Notes under the pieces: generated by a model
Told to the model about the DNA's origin: nothing
The model's database searches: none
Seen by the model: only the letters and a program-made list of their open reading frames with translations
Shown here: one piece after another, positions 22,324-32,567 of the stretch
How positions within the stretch are numbered: position 1 is the first letter of the stretch
Layout of the letters: every line of letters starts with the position of its first letter
Program-made: the position numbers and the translations under genes
Source: Variovorax sp. MHTC-1
GTDB lineage: Bacteria; Pseudomonadota; Gammaproteobacteria; Burkholderiales; Burkholderiaceae_C
Reading direction: 5' to 3'
NCBI RefSeq assembly: GCF_003984645.1
Contig: NZ_RWKI01000007.1
Coordinates: forward strand, 186,001-250,000
DNA: 64,000 nucleotides

Positions 22324-22956
22324 CTAGGCTGCCTTGCCGGGCGCCGCCTGTCCCAAGGCGATCTTGAGCAGGTCGGCCACGGTGTTCGCGTTGAGCTTTT
22401 CCATGATGTTGGCGCGATGCGCTTCCACCGTCTTGATGCTGATGCCGAGGTCGTCGGCGATCTGCTTGTTGAGCCGGCCGGCGACGATGCGCTCGAGCAC
22501 CTGCGCCTCGCGGCCGGTCAGCTTGGACAGCAGCGCATCGCGGCTGGCCGACTGCTGGTGCTGCGCGAAGGCGCCGCGTGCGTGTTCGAGCATGCGTTCG
22601 ACCAGCGCCACCAGCGCCTCGTCGTTGAAGGGCTTCTGGATGAAATCCATCGCGCCCTTCTTCATGCTGTCGACCGCCATCGGCACGTCGCCGTGGCCCG
22701 TGATGACGACGATCGGCAGCGGCGAACGGCGCTCGATCAGGCGGTCTTGAAGTTCGATGCCCGACATGCCGCCCATGCGGATGTCGACGATCAGGCAGGC
22801 AACCTCGCGCGGGTCGTAGCGGGACAAGAAGGACTCGGCCGAATCGAAGCAGCGAACGCGGTAGTCCTTGCCTTCGAGCAGCCATTGCAACGAATCGCGG
22901 ACCGCTTCGTCGTCATCGACGACATAGACCGTGCCCTTCTTGGGAATCAAACTCAT
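22324..22956 (-). CDS. FixJ-family response regulator
   Basis: 210 residues. The receiver domain (1-120) has acidic pocket [12 protein letters not shown], phospho-acceptor Asp in [20 protein letters not shown] and the switch lysine in FIQKPF. The C-terminal LuxR/GerE HTH (about 140-200) reads [43 protein letters not shown]. The NarL/FixJ architecture indicates a phosphorylation-activated transcription factor. The start overlaps the kinase stop by four bases (ATGA), so kinase and regulator are co-translated. Confidence 0.93.
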
Positions 22957-25496
22957 GCGGGTACCTTCGCCTCGTTGCTTGCTACGGAATCAATAGCGTC
23001 CAACACCGGAATCCAGAAGGAAAAACGGCATCCGACCACGTCCGGGCCATTGTAGATGTTCTCTGCCTTCATCCGGCCGCGATGCGACTCGACGATGGTG
23101 CGGCAGAGGTTGAGCCCGATGCCCATGCCTTCTGGCTTGGTGGAGAAGAAGGCTTCGTAGAGCCGATCCATCACCTCCGGCGCGAGGCCCATGCCGGTGT
23201 CCTGCACCGAGAATTCGACCGCGTTCTGGCCGTCGATGACCTTGGGCAGCACGCGCAGTTCGACGCTGCGGCGCGCCAGCGGCCGGTCGGCCAGGTCGAT
23301 CGATTCGGCCGCGTTCTTCAGCAGGTTGACCATCACCTGCTCGATCAGGATCGGGTCGACCCGCACCACCGGAAGCCGCGCTGCCACGTAGTGGTTGAGG
23401 CGCACGTTGCGGCGCCGCAGCTCGATGCCGGCGAGCTCGACTGCTTCGCTCACCATGGTCGAGACCTCGGCCGGCGTCCGGTTCGGCTCGCTGCGCTTCA
23501 CGAACGAGCGGATGCGCTGGATGATCTGGCCCGCGCGCTGCGCCTGCTTGGAGGTCTTGTCGAGCGCCGCGAGCAGCGCTTCGGAATCGATCTGCTGCCC
23601 GCGGATGCGCGACATCATGCCGTTGCAGTAGTTGGTGATGGCGGTCAGCGGCTGGTTGAGTTCGTGCGCGACGCTGGACGCCATCTCGCCCATGGTGATC
23701 AGCCGGCTGGCGGCCTGCGCGCGGTCGGCCTGCGCAGCCGACAGGTCTTCGGCATCGCGCCGCGGCGTGATGTCGGTGGCGATCACGAGTTGCGCCAGCC
23801 GCCCGTCGACCCAGGTCAGGTAGCGCGAACGCACCTCGAGCCACTTGCCGAGCTCGGGCACGAAGATCTCGTTGTTGGCCGGCTGCGCGGCGGTCAGCTG
23901 GTCGATCGGCAGGCCGGCGAAGGGGTCGACGTCGTCGAGCGCGTCGTCGTGCGCATGCGAGGCCGGCACGCCGGCCTGCGCCACCATGCCCAGGTGCCCG
24001 ACGGTGTCGGAGCCGAACCAGAGCCGGTACAGCTTGTTGGCGAACAGCAGTTCCTCGCTGCCGAGGGGCGCCACCGACACCGAGGCGTCCAGCGCCTCGA
24101 GCACCGTGGTGAAGCGCTCGTAGGACGCCGACAGTTGCTCGCGGATGCGGGTGGGCTCGGTGATGTCGGTCATCGAGGTCATCCAGCCGGTCTGGTGGCC
24201 GCGCGCATCGATCAATGGCGACACGTAGAGACGGGCGTTGAACACGCTGCCGTTCTTGCGCTTGACGCGCACCTGGAAGCCGCCGGGCAGCGCGCGGCCG
24301 TGCAGCTCTTCCTCGAGACGCTCGTTCATGATCTCGCGGTCGGATTCCAGCCAGTAGGGGAAGGGCGGGGTCTGGCCCACGAGCTCGCTCTCGTCCCAGC
24401 CCGTCATCGCGCAGAAGGCCGCGTTGACGTAGGTGATGCGGCCCTCGAGGTCGAGCACGCGCATGCCGGTCAGCATGGAGTTCTCCATCGCGCGCCGGAA
24501 GTTGGTTTCGGCCACGAGGGCCTGCTGGGCCTGGAGGCGCCGGCGCGTGTGGCGCCAGGTGCCGATCAGCATCCAGCTCGTGAGCACGCTGAGCGCGCCT
24601 ACCAGCCAGAACAGGCCATTGCCGACCACGCCTTGCGAAGTGCGGTAGGCCTGCGCGCGCAGCACCAGCGCGTTGCCCACCGGCGAAACCGGGACTTCGT
24701 ATTCGTTGGTCTGTTCGGACCAGGGCAGAAGGCGGGTTTCGGCCTCGCGCGGGCTCGCGACCGTGTTGCCGGCGATCAGGCCGCCCTTGGCATCCAGCAG
24801 CGACACCGCGTAGCGCGCCGACACCTCGGAGGGCATGCCGTAGCGCAGCAGCCCGTCGATCGAGAACTCGCCCAGCACCATGCCCGCGAACAGGCCCTGG
24901 TCGAAGAAGGGAATGTGCAACTGAAGCATGGACGGCGGATCGCTGCCGGCCACCGGTTGCGAGAACACCGGCTGGCGCAGCTCGCGCGCCAGTGCGTAGT
25001 TGCTCTCGATGTCGCCCGGCCGCAGGACGTCGCCTACCGCATGCTGCTGCGCCGGATGGACGCTGGGCGCCGCGTAGCCTGCCTTGAAACGGCGCCGGTC
25101 GTCGATCCAGCTGATCGCCTGCAGCTCGGGAAACTGGCTGACCAGCGATTCTGCGCGGCTCGCGAACTCGGTGGCATCGATCTCGCGGTTGGAGGCATCG
25201 CGCGCCAGGCGCATCAGTTGCTCCTGCCGCTCCAGAAGCCGAAGGCGCACGCGCTGCTGCGCGTACTCCACATCGCGCCTGACCGACTCCTGCTCGCGCT
25301 CCAACTCTTCCGCGCGCAGGTACCAGAAGGCCGCGACGATGGCTGCAAGAAAGAGCAGCACCGCCGCCAGCGGCGCCAGCATCGCGACCGCATCCTGCAG
25401 CACCGGCGTCTGCCGGCGCCACCAGCGCCGCCACCAGGACAGCGGCGACGCATTGACAGCGCTGCGCGCGACCGCGATCGGAGAGGAAAAGGGCAT
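22953..25496 (-). CDS. Membrane PAS-domain sensor histidine kinase
   Basis: 847 residues. TM1 about 33-58, a periplasmic sensing region of about 230 residues, TM2 about 287-308, then PAS1 (NAAFCAMTGWDESELVGQ...), PAS2, the dimerisation/phosphoacceptor domain with His611 in SSVAHELNQPLTAITNYCNG, and an HATPase domain with NLLKNAAES, DTGMGLAPE and GMGIGLNLC. The H-box resembles the FixL/DctB class, matching its FixJ-type partner. The periplasmic part between two helices resembles double-Cache-type sensors in length; the ligand is unknown. It is divergent from the pyruvate dehydrogenase operon, suggesting control of, or by, pyruvate metabolism (inference). Confidence 0.9.
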   Translation of the reverse strand: MPFSSPIAVARSAVNASPLSWWRRWWRRQTPVLQDAVAMLAPLAAVLLFLAAIVAAFWYLRAEELEREQESVRRDVEYAQQRVRLRLLERQEQLMRLARDASNREIDATEFASRAESLVSQFPELQAISWIDDRRRFKAGYAAPSVHPAQQHAVGDVLRPGDIESNYALARELRQPVFSQPVAGSDPPSMLQLHIPFFDQGLFAGMVLGEFSIDGLLRYGMPSEVSARYAVSLLDAKGGLIAGNTVASPREAETRLLPWSEQTNEYEVPVSPVGNALVLRAQAYRTSQGVVGNGLFWLVGALSVLTSWMLIGTWRHTRRRLQAQQALVAETNFRRAMENSMLTGMRVLDLEGRITYVNAAFCAMTGWDESELVGQTPPFPYWLESDREIMNERLEEELHGRALPGGFQVRVKRKNGSVFNARLYVSPLIDARGHQTGWMTSMTDITEPTRIREQLSASYERFTTVLEALDASVSVAPLGSEELLFANKLYRLWFGSDTVGHLGMVAQAGVPASHAHDDALDDVDPFAGLPIDQLTAAQPANNEIFVPELGKWLEVRSRYLTWVDGRLAQLVIATDITPRRDAEDLSAAQADRAQAASRLITMGEMASSVAHELNQPLTAITNYCNGMMSRIRGQQIDSEALLAALDKTSKQAQRAGQIIQRIRSFVKRSEPNRTPAEVSTMVSEAVELAGIELRRRNVRLNHYVAARLPVVRVDPILIEQVMVNLLKNAAESIDLADRPLARRSVELRVLPKVIDGQNAVEFSVQDTGMGLAPEVMDRLYEAFFSTKPEGMGIGLNLCRTIVESHRGRMKAENIYNGPDVVGCRFSFWIPVLDAIDSVASNEAKVPA

Positions 25497-25587
25497 CGCG
25501 CGAGTTTAGGGGAAGGGCCTGCCGCGGGAGCGGCAGGCGTGCAGTGCCATGGCTGCGAACGAGGCCGTGTGCTTCATTTCTCCATTG

Positions 25588-25608
25588 ATGAAATTCAATG
25601 AATTTCAT
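25588..25608. promoter_or_regulatory. Perfect palindrome in the kinase-aceE divergent gap
   Basis: ATGAAATTC at 25588-25596, spacer AAT, and its exact complement GAATTTCAT at 25600-25608. A further GAAATTC half-site occurs at 25634-25640. The 25497-25722 gap is AT-rich compared with its surroundings and contains no gene. The symmetry and location fit an operator for aceE and/or the kinase gene. Confidence 0.55.
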
Positions 25609-25722
25609 AATAAGAAAACGTTGCGCACTATTTGAAATTCGGATATTTCTGTGAGAAACTCCCGCGCGCTGCCGGATACGGCACTAAATTACCCAGCCAC
25701 ACCCTTCAAAAAGGAGACAAGC

Positions 25723-28449
25723 ATGTCGGCAATTCCCGAGAACCGGTTCGGTTCGGCCGCGAACGACACGGACGCCCAAGAAACCCGCGAGTGGATGGAC
25801 GCCCTGTCCGCTGTCATCCAAAGCGAAGGGCCCGATCGCGCGCACTTTCTGCTCGAGCAACTGCTCGAACACGCACGCCAGAACAGCATCGACAAGCCGT
25901 TCTCGGCCAATACCGCCTACGTCAACACCATCGAGACGGACCAGGAGGAGCGCTGCACCGGCAATCTGGAGATCGAAGAGCGCCTGCGCGCCTACATGCG
26001 CTGGAACGCGATGGCGATGGTCGTGAAGGCCAACCGCCACCATCCTCCTGAAGGGGGTGACCTGGGCGGCCACATCGGCTCCTTCGCCTCGCTGGCCAAC
26101 ATGTTCGGCGCCGGCTTCAACCACTTCTGGCATGCGGAGAGCGAGAACCACGGCGGCGACTGCCTCTACATCCAGGGGCACGTCTCGCCCGGCATCTATG
26201 CCCGCGCCTATCTCGAAGGCCGCCTGAGCGAAGAGCAGTTGCTCAACTTCCGCCAGGAGGTCGACGGCAAGGGCCTGTCGAGCTATCCGCATCCGAAACT
26301 GATGCCCGAGTTCTGGCAGTTCCCGACCGTCTCGATGGGCCTGGGCCCGCTGATGGCGATCTACCAGGCGCGCTTCCTCAAGTATCTGCATGCCCGCGGC
26401 ATCGCCAACACCGAGAACCGCAAGGTCTGGGTGTTCTGCGGCGACGGCGAAATGGACGAGGTCGAATCGCTGGGCGCCATCAGCCTGGCGGCGCGCGAGC
26501 GGCTCGACAATTTGATCTTCGTCATCAACTGCAACCTGCAGCGCCTGGACGGTCCGGTGCGCGGCAACGGCAAGATCATCCAGGAGCTCGAAGGCGAATT
26601 CCGCGGCTCGGGCTGGAACGTGATCAAGCTGATCTGGGGCAGCAGTTGGGACCCGCTGCTCGCGCGCGACAAGGACGGCGTGCTGCGCAAGATCATGATG
26701 GAGACGAACGACGGCGACTACCAGTCGTTCAAGGCCAACGACGGCGCCTACGTTCGCAAGCACTTCTTCGGTCGCGATCCGCGCGCGCTGGAGATGGTCG
26801 CCAAGATGACCGACGACGAGATCTGGAACCTGCGCCGCGGCGGCCATGACTCGCAGAAGGTGTATGCGGCCTTCGCCGCGGCGGTCAAGCACACGGGCCA
26901 GCCTACGGTGCTGCTGGTCAAGACCGTCAAGGGCTTCGGCATGGGCAAGGTCGGCGAGGGCAGGAACACGGTGCACCAGACCAAGAAGCTCGGCGACGAG
27001 GACATCAAGGCCTTCCGCGATCGCTTCAACATCCCGATCCCCGACAGCCAGATCGCCGACCTGCCGTTCTACAAGCCGGCAGACGACACGCCGGAGATGA
27101 AGTACCTGCACGAGCGCCGCAAGGCACTCGGCGGCTACCTTCCCGCTCGCCGCACCAAGGCCGATGAGAGCTTCACCGTGCCGACGCTGGACACCTTCAA
27201 GGCCGTGATGGAGCCTACGGCCGAGGGCCGCGAGATCTCGACCACGCAGGCCTACGTGCGCTTCCTTACGCAGCTGCTGCGCGACAAGGCGCTGGGCCCG
27301 CGCGTGGTGCCGATCCTGGTCGACGAAGCGCGCACCTTCGGCATGGAAGGCCTGTTCCGCCAGATCGGCATCTACAACCCCGATGGCCAGCAGTACACCC
27401 CGGTCGACAAGGACCAGGTCATGTACTACAAGGAGGACAAGAGCGGCCAGATCCTGCAGGAAGGCATCAACGAGGCCGGCGGCATGTCGAGCTGGATCGC
27501 CGCAGCCACCTCGTACAGCACCAACAACCGCATCATGGTGCCGTTCTACGTCTACTACTCGATGTTCGGCTTCCAGCGCATCGGCGACCTGGCCTGGGCA
27601 GCGGGCGACATGCAGGCGCGCGGCTTCCTGCTGGGCGGCACCTCGGGGCGCACCACGCTCAACGGCGAGGGCTTGCAGCACGAAGACGGTCACAGCCACA
27701 TCCTCGCGAACACCATCCCGAACTGCGTGAGCTACGACCCGACCTTCGCGCACGAGGTCGGCGTGATCCTGCACCACGGCCTGAAGCGCATGGTGGAGAA
27801 GCAGGACAACGTCTACTACTACCTGACGCTCTTGAACGAGAACTACCCGATGCCCGGCCTGCAGCCCGGCACGGAAGAGCAAATCATCAAGGGCATGTAC
27901 CTCTGCAAGCAGGCCCCGGTGGTCAAGGCTGCGAAGGGCAAGGAGGCGCCGACGGTGCAACTGCTGGGCAGCGGCACGATCCTGCGCGAGAGCATCGCGG
28001 CGCAGGAACTGCTCGAGAAGGACTGGGGCGTCAGTGCCTCCGTGTGGAGCTGCCCGAGCTTCAACGAGCTCACGCGCGACGGCCAGGAGGTCGACCGCTG
28101 GAACCTGCTGCATCCGACCGACGAGCCACGCCTGTGCTTCGTCGCCGAGCAGCTTTCGGCGAGCACCGGCCCGGTCGTGGCGTCGACGGACTACATGAAG
28201 GCCTACGCCGAGCAGATCCGGCCTTTCATTCCGAAGGGCCGCACCTACAGGGTGCTGGGTACCGACGGCTTCGGGCGCAGCGACTTCCGCAACAAGCTGC
28301 GCGAGCACTTCGAAGTCAACCGCCACTACATCGTGGTGGCGGCGCTCAAGGCGCTGGCCGACGAGGGCACGGTGCCGGCGGCCAAGGCGGCCGAGGCGAT
28401 CAAGAAGTACGGCATCAACGCTGAAAAGATCAACCCGCTCTACGCGTAA
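25723..28449 (+). CDS. aceE: Pyruvate dehydrogenase E1 component, homodimeric type
   Basis: 908 residues, the size of single-chain AceE. The thiamine diphosphate motif begins at [17 protein letters not shown] and ends [19 protein letters not shown]; other AceE signatures are [39 protein letters not shown] and [13 protein letters not shown]. It decarboxylates pyruvate and reductively acetylates the lipoyl groups of E2. AAGGAG lies well placed before the ATG at 25723; an upstream ATG at 25651 is rejected. First gene of aceE-aceF-BPH-lpd. Confidence 0.98.
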
Positions 28450-28495: not shown

Positions 28496-30148
28496 ATGGC
28501 AACAGTGGAAGTCAAGGTGCCGGACATCGGCGATTTCGATGAAGTCGCAGTGATCGAAGTGCTGGTGAAGGTGGGCGATTCGGTAGCCGCCGAGCAGTCG
28601 CTCATCACGGTGGAGTCGGACAAGGCTTCGATGGAAATTCCATCGAGCCAGGCCGGCGTCGTGAAGGAACTCAAGGTCCAGGTCGGCAGCAAGGTCAAGG
28701 AAGGCTCGGTCGTGCTGGTGCTCGAAGGCGAGGGCGCAGCTGCGGCACCTGCTGCATCCACGCCTCCTCCGGCCGCGGCGCCGGCGCCTGCAGCGTCTGC
28801 ACCGGCGCCGGCTGCGGCTGCGCCGGCTGCGGCCACGGGCCCGATCGAGGTCAAGGTGCCGGACATCGGCGACTTCAAGGACGTCGCCGTGATAGAGGTG
28901 CTGGTGAAGCCCGGCGACACCGTCAAGGAAGAGCAATCGCTGATCACGGTCGAGTCGGACAAGGCGTCGATGGAGATTCCATCTTCTGCAGCCGGCGTGC
29001 TCAAGGAACTCAAGGTCAAGGTCGGCGACACCGTCAACATCGGCGACCTGATCGCGATCGTCGAAGGTTCGGGCGGAGGCGCTGCCGCTGCTTCGGCGCA
29101 GGCTGCTGCGGCGCCCGCATCCGCGAGCGCATCGGCACCTGCGCCCGCCGCCCCGGCACCATCCGCTGCGCCGGCCGCCGCGCCGCCCGCGCACGATCCG
29201 ACGGTCGCCCCCAGCGGCAAGCTGCCGCATGCATCGCCCTCGGTACGCAAGTTCGCGCGCGAGCTCGGCGTGCCGCTCGAAGAGGTCAAGGGCAGCGGCC
29301 CCAAGGGCCGCGTCACGCAGGAAGACATCCAGAACTTCACCCGCGCGGTGATGAGCGGCGCGGCCGGCACCAAGGCCGCGGCGGTCAAGGCGCCCGCGGG
29401 CGGCGGCGGCGAAGCCCTCGGCCTGCTGCCGTGGCCCAAGGTCGACTTCACCAAGTTCGGCACCGTCGAGCGCAAGGACCTGTCGCGCATCAAGAAGATC
29501 AGCGGCGCCAACCTGCACCGCAACTGGGTGATGATTCCGCACGTCACCAACAACGACGAAGCCGACATCACCGAGCTCGAAGCCTTCCGCGTTTCGACCA
29601 ACAAGGAGAACGAGAAGTCCGGCGTCAAGGTGACGATGCTGGCTTTCGTGATCAAGGCGGTGGTCTCGGCGCTGAAGAAATACCCCGAGTTCAACACCAG
29701 CCTGGACGGCGACACGCTCGTCTACAAGCAGTACTACAACATCGGCTTCGCGGCCGATACGCCCAACGGGCTCGTGGTGCCGGTGCTCAAGGATGCCGAC
29801 AAGAAGGGCGTGCTCCAGATCAGCCAGGAGATGGGCGAGCTCGCGAAGAAGGCGCGCGACGGCAAGCTCGGCTCGGCCGACATGCAGGGCGGCTGCTTCT
29901 CGATCAGCTCGCTCGGCGGCATCGGCGGAACGCACTTCACGCCGATCATCAACGCGCCCGAAGTCGCGATCCTCGGCCTGTCCAAGAGTGCGACCAAGCC
30001 GGTGTGGGACGGCAAGGCCTTCCAGCCGCGCCTGATCCTGCCCTTGTCGCTGTCCTACGACCATCGCGTCATCGATGGCGCCTCGGCCGCGCGATTCAAT
30101 GCGTACCTGGGCCAGGTCCTCGCCGACTTCCGCCGCGTTCTCCTATGA
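28496..30148 (+). CDS. aceF: Pyruvate dehydrogenase E2 (dihydrolipoamide acetyltransferase), two lipoyl domains
   Basis: 550 residues. Two lipoyl domains (about 1-75 and 118-190) with lipoylated Lys43 and Lys156, each in [10 protein letters not shown]. Ala/Pro-rich linkers join them to a peripheral-subunit-binding domain ([34 protein letters not shown] split across about 243-285) and a C-terminal acetyltransferase domain ending with the catalytic [15 protein letters not shown]. The E. coli enzyme has three lipoyl domains; here the third sits on E3. The stop overlaps the next ATG (ATGA). Confidence 0.98.
28604..28641 (+). repeat. 38-base exact repeat shared by aceF and lpd lipoyl domains
   Basis: The bases around the lipoyl-lysine codon of aceF domain 1 are identical to 30840-30877 in lpd. 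The surrounding lipoyl-domain DNA is also highly similar, indicating recent duplication or gene conversion between the two genes. Confidence 0.85.
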
Positions 30149-30735
30149 CGACCGTCGTGGCCGTCCGTAAAGGCGGCCAAGTGGTGATGGCGGCCGATGC
30201 GCTGGTGACCTTCGGGGATACGCGCCTGTCCTTCAATGCCGAGGCGAACCAGAAGCTCTTCAAGGTCGCCGATGCTGAGGGCGAGAGCGTCTTCGCCGTT
30301 GCCGGCGCGGCTGCGCACTTCCTCGTGCTGCAGCAGGCGCTGGCGGCCCAGCCGGCGGATGCGCTGCGCTTCGGCAGCAAGGACCAGATCTTCCGCACCT
30401 TCACGCTGCTGCATCCGGTGCTGAAGGAGTCCTTCTTTCTGCAGACCAAGGAAGACGAGCACGATCCCTACGAATCGAGCCAGTTCACGATGCTGCTTGC
30501 CAACCCGAGCGGCATCTACGGGATCTACAGCTACCGCGAGGTCTTCGAGTTCAAGCAGTTCTGGAGCATCGGCTCGGGACGCAGCTTTGCGCTCGGCGCC
30601 ATGCACGCGGCCTACGACAAGGCACGCTCGGCGCGCGAGATTGCGGAAGCCGGCGTCGCCGCGGCCTGCGAATTCGATCGCAATTCGGCAGCCCCCATCG
30701 ACGTTCTCACACTCAAACTGAAGGTGTCCAAATGA
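30145..30735 (+). CDS. Proteasome-like Ntn hydrolase, betaproteobacterial proteasome homologue (BPH) type
   Basis: 196 residues. The N terminus [18 protein letters not shown] would expose a catalytic Thr1 after Met removal and places Asp17 as in HslV and proteasome beta subunits; a lysine in NQKLFKV (Lys36) probably matches Lys33 with a short insertion. The later [11 protein letters not shown] and [26 protein letters not shown] segments follow the HslV fold order. It differs from HslV in the region after Asp17, and no HslU-type ATPase is nearby; the size and lineage fit BPH, a self-compartmentalising family described from betaproteobacteria. Its start overlaps the aceF stop and its stop overlaps the lpd start, each by ATGA, so it is translated as part of the pyruvate dehydrogenase operon. 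Natural substrate unknown. Confidence 0.8.
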
Positions 30736-32567
30736 GCGAACAGCAAATCAAGGTGCCGGACATCGGCGATTTCGACGAAGTCGCGGTGATCGAGGTGCTG
30801 GTGAAAGTGGGCGACACGGTGAAGGCCGAGCAGTCGCTGATCACGGTGGAGTCGGACAAGGCTTCGATGGAAATTCCTTCCTCGCATGCCGGCGTCGTGA
30901 AGGCGCTGGCCGTGAAGGTCGGCGACAAGGTGAGCGAAGGCTCGGTGGTGCTGACGCTGGATGTGGCGGAAGGCGCCGCGGCGCCGGCACCTGCGGCAGC
31001 AGCACCGGCAGCACCGGCAGCGCCGGCCGCGGCACCCGCCGCCGCGGCGCCGAAGCAGGCGCCGGCGCCCGCGCAAGCGCCGGCCGTGGCGTCGAGCTAC
31101 ACCGGGTCGGTCGACCTCGAATGCGATCTGCTGGTGCTGGGCGCCGGCCCCGGCGGCTATTCGGCCGCCTTCCGCGCGGCCGACCTCGGTCTGAAGGTGG
31201 TGCTGGTCGAGCGCTATGCGACGCTGGGCGGGGTCTGTCTCAACGTCGGCTGCATTCCTTCGAAGGCCTTGCTGCACGTGGCCGCGGTGATCGACGAGGT
31301 CAGGCATTTCGCCGACCTCGGCGTGAGCTACGACGAACCCAAGGTCGACCGCGCCAAGCTGCTCGGCCGCAAGAACAAAGTGGTGGGGAAGCTCACCGGC
31401 GGCCTCTCCGCGATGGCGAAGATGCGCAAGGTAACGACGGTGCGCGGCATCGGCGAATTCGTCGACCCATACCACGTCAAGGTGCAGGAAACCACGGGCG
31501 ACGGCAAGGCCACCACCGACAAGGCGCAGACGGTCAAGTTCCGCCACTGCGTCATCGCTGCCGGCTCGCAGGCCGTGCACCTGCCCTTCATGCCCAAGGA
31601 CCCGCGGGTGGTGGATTCGACCGGCGCGCTGGAGCTCGGCGTCGATCCCAAGCGCATGCTGATCCTGGGCGGCGGCATCATCGGCCTCGAGATGGGCTCG
31701 GTCTACTCCACGCTGGGTGCCCGGCTCGACGTGGTCGAGATGCTCGACGGCCTGATGCAGGGCGCCGACCGCGACCTGGTCAAGGTCTGGCAGAAGCTCA
31801 ATGCGCCGCGCTTCGACAACATCATGCTGAAGACCAAGACGGTCGGTGCCGAGGCCACCAAGGACGGCATCCGCGTCAGCTTCGAAGGCGAGCAGGCGCC
31901 GAAGGAACCGCAGCTCTACGACCTGGTGCTGCAGGCCGTGGGCCGCAGCCCCAACGGCAAGAAGATCGGCGCCGAGAAGGCCGGCGTGAACGTCAGCGAT
32001 CGCGGCTTCATTCCGGTCGACATCCAGATGCGCACCAACGTGCCGCACATCTTCGCGGTCGGCGACATCGTCGGCCAGCCGATGCTGGAGCACAAGGCGG
32101 TGCACGAGGCGCACGTGGCGGCCGAGGTGATCGCCGGCGAGCAGAAGGGCGACAAGGAACTGGCGAGCGCGGCCTTCAACGCCCGCGTGATCCCCAGCGT
32201 GGCCTACACCGACCCCGAGATCGCCTGGGTCGGGCTCACCGAAGACCAGGCCAAGGCCGAGGGCGTGAAGATCGAGAAGGGCCTGTTCCCTTGGACCGCT
32301 TCGGGACGCGCGATCGCCAACGGCCGGGACGAGGGTTTCACCAAGCTGCTGTTCGATGCCGAATCGCACCGCATCGTCGGCGGCGGCATCGTGGGCACGC
32401 ACGCTGGCGACATGATCGGAGAGATCGCCCTGGCGATCGAGATGGGCGCCGATGCGATCGACATCGGCAAGACGATCCACCCGCACCCGACGCTCGGCGA
32501 GAGCATCGGTCTGGCGGCGGAGGCGGCGCACGGCCACTGCACGGATCTGCCGCCAGTCAAACGCTGA
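30732..32567 (+). CDS. lpdA: Dihydrolipoamide dehydrogenase (E3) with N-terminal lipoyl domain, pyruvate dehydrogenase type
   Basis: 611 residues, about 130 more than a standard E3. Residues 1-80 form a lipoyl domain with Lys43 in [10 protein letters not shown], then an Ala/Pro linker, then the flavoprotein from about 130: FAD motif [21 protein letters not shown], redox disulfide [19 protein letters not shown] motif [15 protein letters not shown], second FAD motif FAVGDIV, and the active-site HPHPTLGE histidine. It reoxidises dihydrolipoyl groups of AceF. Lipoyl-E3 fusions are known in betaproteobacteria and Neisseria. A second stand-alone E3 lies with sucAB at 46786. Confidence 0.97.
30840..30877 (+). 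repeat. 38-base exact repeat, lpd copy
   Basis: Identical to 28604-28641 in aceF; covers the lipoyl-lysine region of the E3-borne lipoyl domain. Confidence 0.85.

Follow-up and report, generated by a model that had tools for sequence, protein, structure and literature searches.

The window analyzed here is a stretch of 64,000 nucleotides from the soil bacterium Variovorax sp. MHTC-1 (contig NZ_RWKI01000007.1, positions 186,001 to 250,000), and our subject is the intergenic region upstream of aceE, which encodes pyruvate dehydrogenase E1. Across this gap from aceE lie the genes of a PAS histidine kinase and a FixJ-type response regulator, divergently oriented, as an earlier note on this DNA had described; gene positions, strands and domain matches all agree on this point (Table 1). 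The large periplasmic part that the note had assigned to the kinase would be a putative region of about 230 residues between two hydrophobic windows (residues 30–63 and 294–313). Neither protein reaches the NCBIfam equivalog cut-off of its namesake (237.7 bits vs 255 for FixJ in the regulator, 189.8 vs 850 for FixL in the kinase). The gap itself holds a conserved element which, judging from the sequence comparisons presented below, is probably the tandem operator of a single-copy IclR-family regulator encoded elsewhere in the genome, a protein that would co-regulate aceE, the isocitrate lyase gene aceA and its own gene.

We have compared the locus within its own family. Of 120 same-family genomes, 116 gave a kinase match; when the count is restricted to genomes with completeness of 90% or more and contamination of 5% or less, all 105 gave one. 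From the 116 positive genomes, 109 were analyzed (110 loci, G063 having two), leaving out those with partial or edge kinase matches (G009, G043, G045, G057, G065, G102 and G104). Six of the 110 loci, in which one or both genes were not shown, were then excluded, and in all the remaining 104 the pair is divergent from aceE. The gene arrangement itself is already known and is not new: pairs resembling AccSR and BphPQ near aceEF-lpd in betaproteobacteria have been published (mBio 2019 AccS paper, PMC6456745).

Across these 104 loci, from which 25 intergenic regions were printed for comparison, the conserved element consists of two putative operator sites in tandem. The single 17-mer scored higher than any of 104 shuffled controls in 94 loci, and the tandem 38-mer exceeded the shuffled maximum in 100. 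The predicted aceE promoter, which overlaps the second site, forms a block that stood above the best shuffled control in 99 loci. A scan for leftward promoters found one match, compared with a shuffle mean of 0.1, and this match overlaps both sites. The block could hence be mainly a pair of overlapping divergent promoters, aceE rightward and kinase leftward, and no operator. We consider this very improbable: the symmetric arms are conserved outside the hexamers, the motif recurs at aceA and iclR (see below), and a separate conserved block adjoins the kinase start.

Table 1. Features of the aceE locus and the candidate regulator gene (window positions, except for the IclR-family gene, given by contig of the same genome, G000)
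Feature	Position	Strand	Basis or remark
Operator site 1 (putative), ATTTCATAATAAGAAAA, 17 bp	25602..25618	+	Family consensus ATTTCATAATATGAAAT, 8-1-8 inverted repeat
Operator site 2 (putative), TGCGCACTATTTGAAAT	25622..25638	+	20 bp from site 1; overlaps aceE -35
Predicted aceE promoter, TTGAAA, 17 bp, GAAACT, with TGTGN before it (family consensus)	25632..25660	+	Ungapped block
Possible leftward promoter, TTCAAA, 18 bp, TATTAT, overlapping the operator	25607..25636	-	Consensus scan alone
9-3-9 palindrome, ATGAAATTC-AAT-GAATTTCAT	25588..25608	.	Only the right part overlaps the conserved site
IclR-family regulator gene, own genome	G000:C1:91008-91793	-	PF09339 1e-12, PF01614 4.1e-41
FixJ-type response regulator, BphQ/AccR-like by position	22324..22956	-	PF00072 1.9e-28, PF00196 (LuxR-type HTH) 4e-19
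PAS histidine kinase, BphP/AccS-like by position, putative periplasmic region	22953..25496	-	PAS, HisKA, HATPase_c; His 611
aceE, pyruvate dehydrogenase E1	25723..28449	+	TIGR00759 1429.5 bits, cut-off 859.9
aceF, E2, two lipoyl stretches	28496..30148	+	TIGR01348; PF00364 x2
lpdA, E3, N-terminal lipoyl domain	30732..32567	+	TIGR01350; PF00364

The earlier note had singled out the perfect 9-3-9 palindrome in the gap as a good operator candidate. The palindrome is present, and no other sequence of the 5.88-Mb genome comes within two mismatches of it, the nearest having three. Yet perfect inverted repeats are over-represented in the window in general (4 with 9-bp arms and a 3-bp spacer vs a mean of 0.5 in 10 first-order Markov simulations; 35 with spacers of 0 to 10 bp vs 9.5 simulated), so the palindrome as such is not exceptional. 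Nor is it kept where the gene arrangement is kept. Among the 104 loci the 21-mer is exact here only, it has two mismatches in one other locus and at least four in the other 102, and we have therefore discarded it as a conserved unit. Its right arm coincides with the left half of site 1, and its left arm is not conserved; the conserved element begins 14 bp to the right of the palindrome start. The place is significant because the 38-bp element that overlaps it is conserved, and not because of the palindrome as drawn: an operator-like element does lie between the genes, in a different form from the one proposed. Likewise, the further half-site GAAATTC that the note had listed is there (25634–25640), as a part of the second operator copy plus the -35. 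The only other locus whose sequence comes close to the palindrome is the second of the two kinase-aceE loci of G063 (L029 and L049). Compared with plasmid records, the intergenic DNA gave two chance-like matches.

A motif search of the DNA between the kinase start and the operator, covering 95 regions, returned as its top motifs a single block at the kinase start, and no second conserved element rose above the shuffled level (with one motif width and 60 random seeds, a setting in which weak elements could be missed). As this block was all that was found, there is no sequence argument for a separate operator of the two-component system. The block (around 25496–25515) is -10-like, lies a few bases from the aligned kinase start, is also seen in relatives and suggests a leaderless kinase transcript. 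Two other features of the gap were noticed: a GC-rich inverted repeat on the kinase side, GCCTGCCGC-GGGA-GCGGCAGGC (25517–25538), and a TACTAAATTAC-like sequence (around 25685–25700) downstream of the aceE -10, which recurs in many of the printed relatives at variable distance.

FixJ-like regulators bind near -35 regions, where the second site lies, and the neighbouring pair is divergent from aceE in all 104 same-family loci. In the scheme of the earlier note, the phosphorylated FixJ-type regulator would bind the palindrome (or else the tandem site) and control aceE upon a signal received by the membrane kinase, and the published association of such pairs with ace genes in betaproteobacteria speaks for it too (PMC6456745). 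In AccS/AccR from Azoarcus and BphP/BphQ from Acidovorax KKS102, as in the window, the kinase gene is directly upstream of the regulator gene and near aceEF-lpd; AccS and BphP are membrane kinases with a periplasmic part and a PAS domain, and the window kinase is alike when compared by description, not by sequence (PMC6456745). The targets reported for both systems are aromatic-degradation promoters, and the passages of that paper used here show no control of aceE (PMC6456745). The autokinase activity of AccS involves cysteines C694, C697 and C863, that is, H+13, H+16 and H+182 (PMC6456745). The window kinase has Cys at H+13, Met at H+16 and further Cys residues at H+187 and H+212, counted from its own His and not from an alignment with AccS, which leaves the equivalent of the third AccS cysteine uncertain. 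A second kinase-regulator pair resembling that of the window is found in the same genome (G000:C39:295506-298245), with 33–39% and 46% identity.

In order to separate the operator from the pair, we turned to the order level, where 70 of 130 genomes with aceE were analyzed and 66 had a usable aceE start. A strong operator was found in families f1, f4 (3 of 4 genomes), f7, f17, part of f9, and in G238 of f38. Four f7 genomes belonging to four genera (G250, G125, G173 and G216) carry an operator as strong as those in the window's family: a 17-mer matrix trained solely on same-family aceE loci scored 23.5 to 26.2 upstream of their aceE genes, the training-set shuffled maximum being 10.7. In none of the four was the kinase matched within the 1.5 kb that precede aceE. 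Regulator matches were absent at E 1e-25 in G125 and G216, and in G250 and G173 reached only 38–46%, about as distant as a paralog encoded in the genome of the window; the HTH part of the regulator alone gave one match, of 34%, in G216. Directly across the intergenic region from aceE, G216 and G173 show a folD-like gene (recognised by sequence), and the folD of the window (PF02882) is located beyond the kinase-regulator pair. Conversely, G170 (f4) has a 54% relative of the regulator about 100 kb from aceE, but neither the operator nor an IclR match. Locus L163, in G238, shows a good aceE motif pair though it has no IclR match and no adjacent kinase.

These genomes led us to reject the two-component regulator as sole owner of the site, since the operator is kept without the pair in f7 and is absent from G170, where a relative of the regulator is kept. 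The scheme of the earlier note is thus quite unlikely, the more so as the sole block above the shuffled level between the kinase start and the operator adjoins the former, and as the f7 genomes G125, G173 and G250 have the motif at aceA and iclR too. A combined scheme seems doubtful, though less so: where the pair is kept, the IclR protein would act on the tandem site, while that site or a cryptic one would also be read by the two-component regulator. Such dual control is favoured by the lasting association of the pair with aceE and by a suggested redox link (PMC6456745); against it stand the failure of the 95-region search to find a second conserved element and the similarity of the tandem site in f7, where there is no pair. 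By position the pair is a relative of BphPQ/AccSR, and its link to the operator is unsupported. In the genomes compared, it is not the two-component genes that the operator follows; the single-copy IclR-family protein agrees better with its distribution.

The IclR lead came from a motif search allowing one mismatch in 40 genomes, which gave matches in 34 of them and 98 matches on both strands (palindromic ones being counted twice) vs 6 for the reversed control. We read 58 motif neighbourhoods, two of which, from the window's own genome, have no match to the search pattern. In G125, one site precedes the likely start of an IclR-family gene by about 31 bp, and in ten genomes a site adjoins aceA (recognised by sequence; the gene at L248 matches PF00463). 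When the matrix trained on aceE was applied upstream of iclR, it detected a site in 26 of 30 loci, that of G125 among them. Of 80 named loci 76 were usable, mostly from Comamonadaceae, and 68 of these have a site upstream of iclR too. For aceA, 40 genomes were searched, 35 gave a match and 30 loci were analyzed. The aceE-trained matrix found an upstream site in 20 out of 20 analyzed IclR-positive genomes, each with p ≤0.03; three of these sites (G248, G251 and G125) had already been seen in the motif search. G085, G099 and G105, labelled IclR-positive by family only, have the aceA site as well. Further sites are often present about 21–22, 41 and 63 bp away, frequently three in phase. Neither of the two analyzed genomes without an IclR match (G220 and G214) has a site at aceA.

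The window's own genome carries the motif at all three genes, with the iclR site, ATTTCACCAAGTAAAAT, located 26 bp from the start codon. A search of this genome with the 17-mer at three mismatches had returned aceE plus one further place only, from which our first idea was a one-gene regulon; this was dropped once the weaker aceA and iclR sites were found with the matrix. By eye, motif matches were also seen upstream of icd-, pyruvate kinase-, rpsL- (two genomes) and boxC-like genes (L263, L274, L230, L259 and L229), which are possible further members of the regulon in single genomes.

The candidate binder contains both the HTH_IclR and the IclR_C domains and is 99% identical over 262 residues to a protein from Variovorax paradoxus. 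Using the G125 protein as a query on 50 genomes (1e-40), we obtained one match per genome, with 68–83% identity, in 28 genomes besides G125 itself. With G125 included, the positive genomes are distributed among families f1 (14), f4 (3), f7 (4), f9 (4) and f17 (4). A protein at least 68% identical is present in 29 of the 30 tested genomes of these five families, and the exception, G170, also lacks the operator. Eleven other genomes have relatives of 47–58%, and 10 of the 50, G170 included, gave no match. The candidate does not reach the NCBIfam cut-offs for IclR (101.3 bits vs 380), BhcR (152.8 vs 350), KdgR (139.5 vs 275) or the PcaR type (PcaR/PcaU; 137 vs 284.75). Its structurally solved relatives include the acetate operon repressor, whose ligands are glyoxylate and pyruvate.

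We counted by hand the co-occurrence of operator and protein in 37 genomes, omitting the window's genome, 11 other same-family genomes and G185. The operator (38-mer score >20) is present in 15 of 17 genomes with an IclR protein of at least 65% identity vs 1 of 20 without it (Fisher 2e-7), and in 10 of 12 with an adjacent kinase vs 6 of 25 without (p 1e-3). Conservation of the operator, a motif common to the three genes and co-occurrence with the IclR protein are seen in the genomes themselves. Several points weigh against assigning the motif to this protein. Because the genomes are related, the Fisher values overstate their independence, and the 38-mer matrix was seeded in part on 12 order-level loci among those scored, although the f7 result is the same with the 17-mer, for which only loci of the window's family served as training set. 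In G251 and G127 the IclR protein is present (71% and 69%), but their aceE operator is weak or absent (8.1 and 17.2) and they have no iclR site; G216 and G245 likewise have no iclR site. The aceE motif of G238 scores 28.2, yet this genome has no IclR match. G141, G218, G128 and G176, with IclR relatives of 55–58%, have a site at aceA (a weak one in G128: 11.6, p 0.02) and none at aceE, and G144 (55%) has neither. The IclR-positive G213 and G216 gave no aceA match. Finally, the aceA and iclR sites of the window's own genome are degenerate, with scores of 14.4 to 16.6, and the search at three mismatches did not pick them up.

Ownership of the motif is inferred from co-occurrence and position only, so another transcription factor could own it, controlling aceE, aceA and iclR, with the IclR protein as merely one of its targets; G238, with the motif and no IclR match, would fit this. 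We find it unlikely, given that autoregulation is usual for IclR proteins, that G170 is without both the protein and the motif, and that the two analyzed genomes with no IclR match are also without the aceA site.

Regarding binding, ligand and sign of action of the IclR protein, we infer the following. The two sites at aceE are 20 bp apart, on roughly the same face of the DNA, and each would be bound by one IclR dimer. The sites upstream of and over the aceE -35 would then be occupied, as would the further sites above aceA, and the protein would set pyruvate dehydrogenase against the glyoxylate shunt while being autoregulated through the motif at its own promoter. The effector is probably a small 2-oxo acid, for instance pyruvate or glyoxylate. 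We lean slightly towards activation at aceE, because this gene has a poor -10 and the two sites are placed at the -35 or above it. The older function may be control of aceA, with aceE recruited later, because four of the five analyzed genomes with a 55–58% relative have a site at aceA and none of the five has one at aceE.

In order to place this candidate among known systems, we compared it with regulators of the same genes. E. coli IclR, the repressor of aceBAK, belongs to the same protein family and has a glyoxylate-bypass target, but the candidate falls far below its equivalog cut-off, as given above. E. coli IclR is not known to regulate pyruvate dehydrogenase. The operator of PdhR is of the ATTGGT type, unlike the motif described here, and PdhR is a GntR-family protein, a different family from that of the candidate binder. 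The lineages in which PdhR controls aceEF-lpd include Enterobacteriales and Vibrionales (PMC5343134). A parallel in targets is RccR from Pseudomonas, an RpiR-family sensor of KDPG which, in the reports drawn on here, acts on aceE, aceA and its own gene and has two sites at aceE, as we propose for the IclR protein (PMC5489143, PMC10810197). It differs in its protein family, in its half-site (TGTAGT/ACTACA) and in the distance between its aceE sites, 68 bp vs 20 bp here (PMC5489143, PMC10810197). RccR was therefore rejected as the binder: the targets are the same, but the site is another, and the candidate is an IclR protein. In BvgA operators, too, dimer sites in helical phase lie above the -35 (PMC7250471). 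BvgA-like heptads were rejected too, for their half-sites are similar but have a 22-bp spacing and the opposite polarity (TAAGAAA-TTTCCTA) (PMC7250471). We found no literature on a dedicated aceE regulator in this order, or on a regulator of this kind, in a search of titles and abstract openings, with subscription papers and regulon databases outside its reach.

Beyond these subjects, a 196-residue proteasome-like protein (PF00227) is encoded between aceF and lpdA (30145–30735, + strand), its start overlapping the end of aceF.

The present analysis corrects a natural mistake, which is to attribute an operator to the two-component system encoded beside it. On balance, and by a modest preference, we favour the broader view that, in several Burkholderiales families, a single-copy, so far unnamed protein of IclR type switches between pyruvate dehydrogenase and the glyoxylate shunt, so that one 2-oxo-acid sensor would fill the roles that PdhR, IclR and RccR have elsewhere. 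If this is true, the link of aceE with aceA through one regulator would account for the routing of carbon between acetyl-CoA formation and the glyoxylate shunt in Variovorax, Acidovorax and their relatives.

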